Assembly: GCF_002080415.1 (NCBI RefSeq)
Contig: NZ_CP020474.1
Location: 3,547,501 to 3,611,500, forward strand
Source: Roseovarius mucosus
Lineage (GTDB): Bacteria > Pseudomonadota > Alphaproteobacteria > Rhodobacterales > Rhodobacteraceae
Length of the DNA stretch: 64,000 nucleotides
Direction: 5' to 3'
Numbering within the stretch: the first letter of the stretch is position 1; each line of letters starts with the position of its first letter. This document shows, one piece after another, positions 60,596 through 63,538 of the stretch. The notes below the pieces were generated by a model. That model searched no databases. It saw nothing but the letters and a program-made list of their open reading frames with translations, and had not been told where the DNA came from. The translations under genes and the position numbers were made by a program.

Positions 60596-61870
60596 TCACT
60601 CGCCCTCTAGCCATAACTTGAGATCCTCATTGAACCGGCGAAGGTTGCCGCTCTCAAAGGCAAAGTAATCCTCATTGCCCGGGCTAAATAAATACGTCCC
60701 GTAAACACCCTTTTCCCACCGGCCAACCAGATCGCCGCCCCAATAGACTTTCCGCGTATAATCCAAGTACACGACTTTCCCCTTATTGGAAGTCGGCGGG
60801 TCTTTCGGGAGGAAGCTTAAATCCAGCATGTCCAAAGTACTCTTCCGCTTTGGTGGCTTCGCCCCCTCGAGGTCATCCAGAATCTCAATGAATGAGCGGG
60901 TATCTGCGAAGTAGTTTGGGTATGCTTGCCGAAGCGAGGCCATGTTATCAACGCTAACCTCAATGCTCTGTTTTGTCTCGTCAAGAGAATCCTCTAAATC
61001 GTCGAAAGCAAACAGCTCTCGCCAAGCTGGACTTACCTGAATATTCCCAGTCTCCCTGTTCATTCTGAGCATGTATCTGGAGCCATAGGAACCTCCATTG
61101 GTGTCAGCTTCATGCATGAACTGGCTGAATGTACTTAAGTTGTGTTTGACGTTGAGATTCTTCGAAAGCTCCCTTGCCTCGCGCCGGAGGTCTTTGGGGC
61201 TCATTGATAAGTGTTCTCCAAGCGGCTGGCCCTCAAGTTCAGCAATATGACCGCTCATGAGAGTCAAGAAACGTAGCCACTCAGTATTCCCTTCACCCGC
61301 CTTCAGGTCCTCGGTGCGCATCGAGCCAACTGCCTCGACCGTGGTTGCCCAAACATGTTGAAGCTGGGTGCGTAGTTGAATTTCAACGTTACACCCGACG
61401 TGTTTTTCGCCTGCGCCGCGCTCGCCAAACTTTAGGATCAAATGAATGCTTCTGTATCCGCTGGTCTTTGGGTTCGCGATATAGTCAGTCTTCCGACGCA
61501 CCCGCCCTCCGTCATCAACGGTCTTGTACTTGCTCAGCACTTCTTGAAGAGCATCCATGCTAGGGACGATTGCGCGGCATCCAACAAGGTCTTGCATCTG
61601 GTCGAGTTCCGCACTCCGCCGAAACAGCTTCTTTCGTATGGAAAATAAGCGCTTCAGACGCCCGGCGGTGAGGCCGCCCTGCGGTTTGACTAGTCGGGTC
61701 AGCTTTGCGCGCTCGCGCACCATCGGGTAGGCGTGGTGCAGGCGCCAGTTGTGCACAATTCGAAAGGCTTCTTCGACTTCCGGCGTCCTTTGGACAGCGC
61801 CGCCAAGGAGACGCCCCGCTAGTTTGATCTGGTTCTTTGAGTAGCGACGTTCAATGCTCAGTGTGTACAT
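60596..61870 (-). CDS. RelA/SpoT nucleotidyltransferase-domain protein (candidate alarmone synthetase or toxin)
   Basis: A 424-residue protein. The RelA/SpoT synthetase domain spans about residues 50-210: MQDLVGCRAIV (93-101), KTDYIANPKTSGYRSIHL (127-143, nucleotide-binding G-loop with Tyr139), and VEIQLRTQLQHVWA (162-175, catalytic Glu163). There is no HD hydrolase, TGS or ACT domain, so it is not the housekeeping Rel. The C-terminal half (residues 215-424) matches nothing recognised. Candidate activities are (p)ppGpp or (p)ppApp synthesis, or tRNA-CCA pyrophosphorylation as in toxic small alarmone synthetases. The DNA is visibly AT-richer than its neighbours, a sign of transfer. Confidence 0.8.
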   Translation of the reverse strand: MYTLSIERRYSKNQIKLAGRLLGGAVQRTPEVEEAFRIVHNWRLHHAYPMVRERAKLTRLVKPQGGLTAGRLKRLFSIRKKLFRRSAELDQMQDLVGCRAIVPSMDALQEVLSKYKTVDDGGRVRRKTDYIANPKTSGYRSIHLILKFGERGAGEKHVGCNVEIQLRTQLQHVWATTVEAVGSMRTEDLKAGEGNTEWLRFLTLMSGHIAELEGQPLGEHLSMSPKDLRREARELSKNLNVKHNLSTFSQFMHEADTNGGSYGSRYMLRMNRETGNIQVSPAWRELFAFDDLEDSLDETKQSIEVSVDNMASLRQAYPNYFADTRSFIEILDDLEGAKPPKRKSTLDMLDLSFLPKDPPTSNKGKVVYLDYTRKVYWGGDLVGRWEKGVYGTYLFSPGNEDYFAFESGNLRRFNEDLKLWLEGE

Positions 61871-62025: not shown

Positions 62026-62029
62026 TTTC

Positions 62030-62060
62030 AACACCCCTTTAACACCCCCCTAAACACCCC
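62030..62060. repeat. three AACACCCC repeats, 11-12 bases apart
   Basis: AACACCCC occurs at 62030-62037, 62041-62048 and 62053-62060, spaced 11 and 12 bases, about one helical turn. On the minus strand they read GGGGTGTT and lie directly upstream of the 55-codon ORF, the first overlapping its ribosome site. They could be an operator or binding array; promoter elements were not identified. Confidence 0.4.
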
Positions 62061-62062
62061 TC

Positions 62063-63172
62063 TCACTCCACATACCGAAACCCCTGCACGGCGCGAAAGT
62101 GCCCGCCGTAGCCGGTCCCGGCGGGCTTGAGACCTTTGCGTGCCCGGGCGGCGGCGAGGGTCTTCATGCTGCGCTCCTTCGATTCGGCGTAGAGGATGGC
62201 CGAGACCTGCGCCCAGAGGGGATCGCGGCGGAGCGCCGCGGCGAGGCCGGGGTGCGAGGTATGAAAGAGCATCGGCATCGGTTTGTCATAACGGTTCACG
62301 CCGCGCCGCCAGAGGGCGCAGACCTCGTTGAGAAAGCGCAGGCCCAGCCCTGCGCCCTGCCACTCGGGCATCACGACAAGGCGACAGGCGCGACCCTCGA
62401 CCAGCCCCGGCCGGGTGGAGACGGCGAGATGCGCCACGGGCGCGCCGTCGACGAAGCCCACGTAGTAATTCGCCGCGATCATGCGGGGCAGCTTCAGGTA
62501 GTGATGCGGCTCAAAGGCGGGCCAGAAGGAGCCGTCTGTCTGGTGAATGTCCATGGCAATGCGCGGTGCCCGTCGAAGACGCCTCCAGCGGAACTCGGCC
62601 CGGCGAGTGTCGATCACCCAATCGGGCTGTAGCCAGGACACCACGTCCTCGTGACAGGTGACGGCGACGAACTGGCCTTTGCCGCGCCGCCATGCCTTGG
62701 CAAAGGCGGCCGCCCCGATCTGGGCCACGCGCCGGTCGATGGTCGAGGTGAACTCGTCGAGAATGGCAAAGCTCGGCCGCTCGGCCAGAATGCGCGCGAG
62801 CTCAGCCCGGAATTGCTCGCCGGTCGAGAGGTGGCGGAATGGCCGCAGCCAGCTCGGCACCGTGCCAAGGCCCACGGCCGAGAGGGCCGCCGCCACGGCA
62901 TCGAACGCGCCCTCCGGGTCAATTGCGTCGATCAGCGCGCCCTCGGGCCACGGGCGTGGATCAAGCTGCGCGCCAAAGGCCGCGCGGGCGAGGGAGGATT
63001 TGCCGCTGCCCGAGGGGCCGACGATGAGGCCGATCTGCCACGGACGGGCCAAGAGATCGGCCTCGACCTCGAGGCGGAAATCCGCGTCGCCCTCGACGTT
63101 GAAGAGGCTGGAGACTCGGGCCGCGCGATAGGTGTCCGGGATGGGGCTGGCGTGGTGAATGGCGAGCTTCAT
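62063..63172 (-). CDS. ABC-type ATPase fused to GNAT acyltransferase (candidate phage DNA-modification enzyme)
   Basis: A 369-residue protein from ATG 63172, whose start overlaps the preceding ORF stop (ATGA); an ATG six codons upstream is the alternative. Numbering from that upstream Met, the N-terminal half is an ABC-like ATPase: Walker A GPSGSGKSS (58-66), a signature-like LSTGEQ (121-126), Walker B FAILDEF (141-147) and the switch His in VTCHED. The C-terminal half (about 225-340) is a GNAT fold with the acyl-CoA loop WQGAGLGLRFLNEV (277-290). No transporter domain is present. Mu Mom is also a GNAT-like enzyme that modifies adenine, but sequence similarity to Mom is not obvious. Confidence 0.7.
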   Translation of the reverse strand: MKLAIHHASPIPDTYRAARVSSLFNVEGDADFRLEVEADLLARPWQIGLIVGPSGSGKSSLARAAFGAQLDPRPWPEGALIDAIDPEGAFDAVAAALSAVGLGTVPSWLRPFRHLSTGEQFRAELARILAERPSFAILDEFTSTIDRRVAQIGAAAFAKAWRRGKGQFVAVTCHEDVVSWLQPDWVIDTRRAEFRWRRLRRAPRIAMDIHQTDGSFWPAFEPHHYLKLPRMIAANYYVGFVDGAPVAHLAVSTRPGLVEGRACRLVVMPEWQGAGLGLRFLNEVCALWRRGVNRYDKPMPMLFHTSHPGLAAALRRDPLWAQVSAILYAESKERSMKTLAAARARKGLKPAGTGYGGHFRAVQGFRYVE

Positions 63173-63197
63173 GTCACCACCACGCGGCATTTGAAGC
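63166..63197 (-). promoter_or_regulatory. possible stem holding the start codon of the ATPase/GNAT gene
   Basis: On the minus strand GCTTCA pairs with TGAAGC, the second arm containing the last two bases of the ATG at 63172. The loop (20 bases) holds the GGTGGTGA ribosome-binding region. In Mu, the mom start region is folded away and opened by Com; this could be a parallel. The stem is short, so the call is tentative. Confidence 0.3.
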
Positions 63198-63351
63198 CTT
63201 GGCGGCGCAGGCGGCCGAAGGCGTCCACTTGGGCCGCCTCGTCCTCGAGGAGGACAATGACGCCATATTGCCGCCGGTAGCGGGTGCCCTTGGGCAGGCC
63301 CGGCGCACCGGGCGGCAAGTCAGGTTTCGGGAGTGTGGTCGATCTGGCCAA
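63169..63351 (-). CDS. small hypothetical protein between com and the ATPase/GNAT gene
   Basis: A 60-residue ORF starting at TTG (63351) with a perfect AAGGAG six bases upstream, inside the last 32 bases of com. It is Pro-rich at the start and basic, then YGVIVLLEDEAAQVDAFG-like sequence, ending VVVT. It overlaps com upstream and the ATPase/GNAT gene downstream, so the three are translated as a coupled set. No family is recognised. Confidence 0.6.
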   Translation of the reverse strand: MARSTTLPKPDLPPGAPGLPKGTRYRRQYGVIVLLEDEAAQVDAFGRLRRQGFKCRVVVT

Positions 63352-63538
63352 GTTTGGCTCCTTCTCTCTGCGCAGCGCGCTTTGGGGGAAGGGCTCTTGG
63401 CCTCAGGATATTCATCGCCCGGCAGCGCGGGCACTTGATCGAGACGCCGGATATTTGCGCGCCTCTCTCATATTTAAATAGCAAACGGCTGCAGGCGCAG
63501 CAACGCAGTTCTAGACCTTCCAAATCGAATCGCCTCAT
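63320..63538 (-). CDS. com: Com-family zinc-ribbon translational regulator
   Basis: A 72-residue protein that matches Mu Com closely. It has LRCCACSRLLFKYE (Cys 13 and 16), then VSIKCPRCRAMNILRP (Cys 36 and 39), where Mu Com has IRCKNCNKLLFK and EIRCPRC. Mu Com is a zinc-binding RNA-binding protein that opens the mom mRNA for translation. This is the strongest single sign that the right end of the window is Mu-like prophage. The start is ATG 63538, ten bases after a small GC hairpin (63548-63560). Confidence 0.85.
   Translation of the reverse strand: MRRFDLEGLELRCCACSRLLFKYERGAQISGVSIKCPRCRAMNILRPRALPPKRAAQREGAKLGQIDHTPET

Follow-up and report, generated by a model that had tools for sequence, protein, structure and literature searches.

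What does Com switch on when the gene behind it is not mom? In phage Mu, Com switches on the DNA-modifying enzyme Mom, which protects the phage DNA from restriction. In the window (the whole stretch of DNA analysed here, 64,000 nucleotides from a 4.38 Mb genome in 3 contigs), com, a 60-codon ORF and a gene encoding an ABC-ATPase/GNAT fusion overlap in series at the right end of a Mu-like prophage. Judged from sequence comparison and structure prediction, we consider this operon to be a late Com-activated DNA-modification cassette of the prophage, with the fusion probably serving as an ATP-dependent DNA-base acyltransferase; that it is ATP-driven and that it acts on DNA are both features that we infer.

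The com ORF (63538-63320, minus strand; 72 aa) encodes a zinc-ribbon translational activator that matches PF10122 (Zn_ribbon_Com, 32.8 bits against a Pfam cut-off of 22.9) and phrog_6417 'translational regulator' (E 5e-11). It is overlapped by 32 nt by the small ORF (63351-63169, minus strand; 60 aa, TTG start), whose stop codon in turn overlaps the ATG of the fusion gene as ATGA. The earlier note had the fusion start at 63190, as in the ORF list (63190-62063, 375 aa). Because the proteins of relatives start with the MK of MKLAIHH, and because of the ATGA overlap, the start is probably ATG 63172 (63172-62063, minus strand; 369 aa). The series that the note described, Com followed by a coupled 60-codon ORF and the fusion, is otherwise confirmed by PF10122, the overlaps, phrog_11143 and the structural model.

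The fusion stop codon lies ~36 bp short of the point at which four similar sequences, found in 84 kb of chromosome, diverge after ...GTTGAA or variants of it (approximately 62027..62062, no strand assigned). We read these four ends as the right ends of Mu-like prophages. Two of them carry the whole fusion gene, in copies 42 kb apart on one chromosome and 99% identical, and the other two keep its 3' end only (genome contig G000:C1, 3650359-3650438 and 3693410-3693507); these fragments are apparently what is left of further Mu-like phages in this part of the chromosome. The prophage starting inside the window encodes a MuA-like transposase (phrog_310, E 8e-160), a MuB-like protein (phrog_296, E 3e-55), a ParB-like protein and a terminase. 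Given its right-end position and these Mu-like genes, the operon therefore holds the place that com-mom has in Mu. Just beyond the prophage end, a 424-aa ORF (60596-61870, minus strand) encodes a putative RelA/SpoT-type nucleotidyltransferase. Compared with the com-mom region of Mu (AF083977), the window shares the Com zinc ribbon, the Mu-like right end and a following gene that overlaps the end of com (by 50 nt in Mu, 32 nt here). It differs in that the overlapping gene is the extra 60-codon ORF and not the enzyme gene, and in that an ABC ATPase fused to a RimI-like GNAT replaces Mom.

A single PHROGs family, phrog_11143, covers residues 8-374 of the fusion as listed (E 5e-131). The ABC ATPase half (62582..63172, minus strand) matches ABC_tran (PF00005, 39.7 bits, cut-off 25), and the GNAT half (62063..62581, minus strand), which has a RimI-like fold, reaches GNAT models in Pfam below threshold only (PF13508, E 0.0017; PF00583, E 0.0029). 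In the alignment, the signature LSTGEQ, the Walker B Asp-Glu, the switch His, Walker A and QGAGLG are all present and mostly invariant. Walker A (GPSGSGKSS, 62993..63019, minus strand) is near-invariant in sets of 18 and 64 sequences. The acyl-CoA loop, which the earlier note held to be kept, is indeed conserved as QGAGLG (62342..62359, minus strand), with the Q and the first G invariant and the other two G present in at least 90% of 64 sequences. A structure predicted from 64 sequences (mean pLDDT 90.6) aligns over residues 1-200 with solved ABC ATPases and over 205-369 with solved GNATs. The GNAT half thus combines a GNAT fold with a QGxGxG-type CoA loop, as RimI-type protein acetyltransferases do, and among the matches listed the solved folds nearest to it are those of RimI and of other N-acetyltransferases that act on proteins or small molecules. 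Among the viral folds listed for it, the best match comes from Leptospira phage LE4, in a protein of 366 aa that aligns with the full-length fusion.

The family is large, with at least 5726 matches at E <= 0.001 among 8000 scored candidates. The host is probably a Roseovarius. The highest-identity full-length matches (98%, among the best 80 of 453 in species genomes) come from Roseovarius mucosus and Roseovarius sp. 217. Relatives such as P0057 and P0069 carry the name 'ABC-type ATPase with predicted acetyltransferase domain', a description of domains only, which presumably corresponds to COG2401. Many phages, whether annotated as lytic or as temperate, also have an ABC-GNAT gene, near terminase and tail genes.

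To describe the gene neighbourhood we surveyed 160 ABC-GNAT loci, comprising the best 80 of 453 in species genomes and the best 80 of at least 593 in viral contigs; since the best 80 were taken per scan, the survey leans to close relatives. Upstream counts refer to the 149 of the 160 loci with at least 800 nt upstream, and downstream counts to the 141 of 160 with at least 700 nt downstream. Among these best 80+80 loci, the domain of the small ORF is found in 144/149, and its end nearly always coincides with the ABC-GNAT start or lies no more than a few tens of bases away. Com is present in 74/149, each of which carries both Com and the small domain; about half of the ABC-GNAT loci (best 80+80 loci) have no Com. 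The link to com that the earlier note proposed is therefore real and recurrent, and it is accompanied by a Com-type hairpin upstream (see below).

The loci without Com carry the small domain in another form. On the strand examined, which was that of ABC-GNAT, the domain lies inside a ParB-like ORF in 52/76 loci without Com, against 0/75 with Com. ParB_N in Pfam is matched by three of five scanned fused proteins, one of them above cut-off, and PHROGs names ParB in all three proteins scanned (L081, L088 and a Gordonia phage protein). The product of the window's small ORF matches phrog_28816 (E 2e-9), and phrog_28816 lies at the C-terminus of all three of these ParB-like proteins. By sequence, the small ORF in the window is the stand-alone form of a domain that other phages fuse to ParB-like proteins. 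Its presence in 144 of 149 loci, together with the fused ParB forms, therefore marks the 60-codon ORF as a conserved partner of the enzyme; the earlier note was right about the coupling and missed this status. In Porphyromonas phage phage011a_WW2952, a 42-codon gene directly 5' of ABC-GNAT (L005, 3876-4004) is annotated as 'acr candidate', a label that we consider doubtful because, judged by position alone, the gene stands where the small partner ORF does.

According to passages of PMC6483171, Com of Mu binds a hairpin loop with the motif CC(N)2-3GAG. The window contains a candidate Com-binding hairpin inside com (GGCCAAGAGCC, 63392..63402, minus strand), with a CC(N)2GAG core on a 3-bp stem. 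As a site it is weak, as it lacks both the fourth pair and the GA...C flanks that the family consensus has. We searched for such hairpins up to 220 nt upstream of the small domain, counting the closing C-G as a pair, in 75 loci with Com and in 75 of the 76 loci that have the small domain and no Com (at least 200 nt available). A hairpin of at least three pairs was found in 62/75 loci with Com versus 9/75 without (best 80+80 loci); the reverse complement gave 3/75, and 20 shuffles averaged 7.6 (maximum 11). Requiring at least four pairs left 50 loci with Com, 5 without, 1 on the reverse complement and an average of 2.6 (maximum 9) in the shuffles. Five pairs occurred in 0/75 loci with Com, and 13 of the 75 had no CC(N)2-3GAG hairpin at three pairs.

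Covariation was assessed on motif sites taken without any pairing requirement (119 unique, unfiltered sites). All three flanking positions are paired at 59/119 sites, compared with a mean of 16.1 and a maximum of 27 in 1000 shuffles of the partners; the fourth stem position pairs below expectation (21 versus 29.3 expected). A less redundant set of 37 loci (61 sites), chosen at <75% identity of the fusion protein, lowers relatedness, some of which is still present, and keeps loci without a full-length protein unchecked. In this set, 29/61 sites are paired. Sliding the partner leaves 5-6 paired, and none of 2000 shuffles gives more than 17; a paired site is present in 23/37 loci. Where one locus holds more than one, the paired sites are spaced by 21-32 nt (n=6). 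At the 29 paired sites, the bases before the stem are G (27) and A (26), and a C follows the stem at 27/29. Stem variants such as ACG/CGT, TCG/CGA and AGG/CCT covary.

We considered coding constraint as a cause of the hairpin, as most sites lie inside com. The paired sites are spread over every reading frame of com (16, 8 and 3; another 2 lie outside com) and their stems covary, a pattern for which coding does not account. We thus arrive at an extended Com-site consensus of GA, a 3-bp flank, CC(N)2-3GAG, the complementary 3-bp flank and C, which the Mu site fits, sharing the GA...C flanks. The CC(N)2-3GAG hairpin with these flanks is accordingly common to Mu and the family consensus; the difference from Mu is that the hairpin in the window is weak and that no separate hairpin over the start is shown.

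The RNA of the window is predicted to fold stably around the start of the small ORF (z -2.78; 2 of 200 shuffles equally stable). The predicted fold pairs the Com-site strand and the bases following it with the TTG start and the Shine-Dalgarno sequence of the small ORF (AAGGAG, 63363-63358, minus strand, with the TTG 6 nt beyond). We rejected start sequestration as a rule of the family: the small-ORF start is less accessible than the com start in only 25/74 loci, and mean accessibility from base-pairing probabilities is 0.44 for the small-ORF start versus 0.39 for the com start (74 loci), in a test that picks start codons by a simple rule and uses a measure uncalibrated on Mu.

The genes that follow com in other genomes argue for a role in DNA modification. 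The comparison of Com neighbourhoods that the earlier note proposed was made by scanning Rhodobacterales for PF10122, which identified 17 places in 13 of 390 genomes, including that of the window. The next gene is a DNA methyltransferase at 11 of the 17 loci (L175-L178, L180-L184, L189 and L190), with an ORF that overlaps com and scores above the Pfam cut-off; these methyltransferases belong to three Pfam families (seven C5-cytosine, three D12 adenine and one N4/N6). Five loci have the small ORF and ABC-GNAT, two of which are the window genome's own, and one is degenerate (L187). The methyltransferase loci thus have the same Com leader and the same slot as ABC-GNAT, with a methyltransferase in place of the putative acyltransferase.

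In a sample of the phylum, Com was matched at 33 places in 27 of 397 genomes, corresponding to 29 new loci, the window's own locus and 3 places without a locus. The gene adjoining com at the 29 loci matches the D12 methylase of L175 in 17 cases, Mom in 3, a C5-cytosine methylase in 2 and an N4/N6 methylase in 1, so that a methyltransferase or Mom follows com at 23/29. Among the others, L212 falls just short of the D12 cut-off (21.7 against 22 bits) and L215 resembles L212 by eye only; com is followed by an unknown gene in L193, a HEAT-repeat gene in L195 and a lectin-like gene in L196; and L217 has no credible Com. ABC-GNAT was found at 0/29 of these phylum loci. Over both samples, 41 Com loci lack ABC-GNAT, and at 34 of them com is followed by a clear DNA-modification gene. 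In the survey of ABC-GNAT loci, no Mom ORF was found on the ABC-GNAT strand of the 160 loci (best 80+80), and three methylase seeds matched on that strand in 6/160, in two cases (L046 and L127) directly upstream of the small ORF.

At the level of sequence, the case for a DNA-modification role rests most strongly on the apparent exchange of ABC-GNAT and methylase. Three genomes, two of one genus, each have two Com loci that bear different partners. In the first, L178 (N4/N6 methylase) and L188 (ABC-GNAT) share 98.4% identity across 1673 nt; in the second, L179 (ABC-GNAT) and L189 (C5 methylase) are 94.6% identical over 1381 nt; in the third, L186 (ABC-GNAT) and L190 (C5 methylase) are 94.3% identical over 669 nt. 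Identity in each pair stops near the end of com, where the candidate start codons of the partner genes coincide. On the far flank of L178/L188, 94.8% identity resumes over 191 nt; for L179/L189 and L186/L190, no second match was found past the exchange point within the fetched stretch. The swap of ABC-GNAT for a methylase behind a near-identical Com leader amounts to a natural complementation experiment.

The pathway that we propose would begin, by analogy with Mu, with Com binding the CC(N)2-3GAG hairpin of the mRNA that encodes it and so opening translation of the 60-codon ORF, after which the fusion would be translated via the ATGA overlap. The small protein and the fusion may act as one enzyme, because their adjacency is near-constant. 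Two ABC halves would clamp together with ATP, on or around DNA; late in infection, the GNAT half would take an acyl group from an acyl-CoA and attach it to a phage DNA base. Acylated phage DNA could then escape restriction, as Mu does with Mom. We favour DNA as the substrate because DNA methyltransferases swap into the same Com-controlled slot. The recurrent link to com, the Com-type hairpin and the modification-enzyme slot therefore make a DNA acyltransferase the best reading of the fusion.

With RimI and further N-acetyltransferases for proteins or small molecules as the nearest solved folds of its GNAT half, the fusion could instead be an ATP-dependent protein acetyltransferase used for host takeover or virion assembly, with Com as a general late translational switch. 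The three phylum loci (of 29) where com precedes a HEAT-repeat, a lectin-like and an unknown gene point the same way. We consider this unlikely in view of the 34 of 41 loci without ABC-GNAT that have a DNA methyltransferase or Mom next, the methylase/ABC-GNAT exchange in three genomes, and the ParB-like partner, a fold that in phrog_498 accompanies phage DNA methyltransferases too.

Prophages often carry genes for defence or superinfection exclusion, and the ATPase part of the fusion matches mad3 of the MADS defence system in PADLOC (E 4.7e-15, in two stretches, the better one aligning residues 116-194 with model positions 259-336 of 374). A prophage-borne defence or superinfection-exclusion protein is nevertheless improbable: the mad3 match is confined to the ABC part, the other mads match (mad8) is weak, and ABC-GNAT stands under Com control and is encoded next to terminase and tail genes in many phages, lytic or temperate by annotation.

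Finally, it is very improbable that the GNAT half is a divergent Mom making N6-carbamoylmethyladenine, as might be suggested by the same control, the same phage end and, by eye, a shared HY(L/S) start and Q..FRY-like end, since the Mom model PF25680 is not among the Pfam matches of the fusion at E <= 1, profile comparison with Mom by hhalign (64 versus 29 sequences) gives a probability of 0.2%, the QGxGxG CoA loop is absent from the Mom alignment, and, though this carries no weight on its own, Mom is not named among the 50 listed viral fold matches of the GNAT half (several rows nameless). The earlier note's view that the GNAT half is not obviously Mom can be put more firmly: on these comparisons the fusion is not Mom, though it is placed and seemingly controlled like Mom.

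If the fusion is a DNA acyltransferase, the genes downstream in relatives may offer one clue to its acyl group, which the earlier note overlooked. An ORF of the formyltransferase family starts within 600 nt downstream in 101/141 loci (best 80+80 loci), including 52/66 loci with Com and 49/75 without. Clustering of downstream ORFs places 100 loci in one cluster (135 loci with at least 900 nt), and all four of the downstream formyltransferase ORFs scanned match PF00551. The nearest solved relatives of the protein from an Achromobacter locus (L031) are the formyltransferase domain of 10-formyltetrahydrofolate dehydrogenase (E 5e-27); unlike in that enzyme, the downstream formyltransferase of the relatives is a stand-alone gene. 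All 106 aligned sequences keep the catalytic His and Asp, and an Asn two residues before the His is present in 0/96 of those with a readable motif. PurN and Fmt have an Asn at that position, two residues ahead of the catalytic His. In Gordonia phage Axumite, an ORF annotated as tRNA-methyltransferase (L006, 1805-2452) matches Formyl_trans_N above cut-off and phrog_9240 formyltransferase.

The formyltransferase domain of 10-formyltetrahydrofolate dehydrogenase passes the formyl group to a pantetheine thiol. We speculate, as a rather improbable idea, that formyl transfer could be a new class of DNA modification, in which, where a phage has the complete operon, the formyltransferase would charge CoA and an ATP-driven ABC-GNAT with its ParB-linked partner would put the formyl group on a base, with Com in control. 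The window's prophages have no formyltransferase, and neither do the Roseovarius relatives with enough sequence, L014 and L023. The window genome has three weak formyltransferase matches outside the prophage region (best E 3e-7), which we take to be host genes of the PurN/Fmt type. Since the window's prophages lack the gene, the formyl hypothesis cannot be the whole story in the window. Should it hold elsewhere, phages without the formyltransferase, such as the window's, would use another acyl-CoA, and one family would make several marks.

That ABC-ATPase-coupled GNATs may acylate a DNA base, for example in phage pT24, was predicted earlier (in passages of PMC7824862, citing Iyer et al. 2013), and therefore the general idea is not new. 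The earlier note's proposal of a new Mom-like DNA acyltransferase thus stands as the best reading, supported by the slot and the exchange, and its claim of novelty does not. The pT24 ABC-GNAT has the same domain pair as the window protein, with 33.8% identity over 73% of it, and differs in that the two domains are two annotated genes in the record; Com does not appear in the passages of PMC7824862 that carry the prediction. Within the literature searched, which left most subscription papers and Iyer et al. 2013 outside, we found no coupling of Com with ABC-GNAT or of ABC-GNAT with a formyltransferase; nor did we find there any mention of the partner domain or of the methylase exchange.

The loci described here make the older prediction of DNA acylation by ABC-GNAT directly testable. 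They indicate that what Com controls extends beyond Mom to other kinds of late DNA-modification enzyme. They also define a minimal gene set with which to search for an unknown base, namely the small ORF and ABC-GNAT, with or without the formyltransferase.
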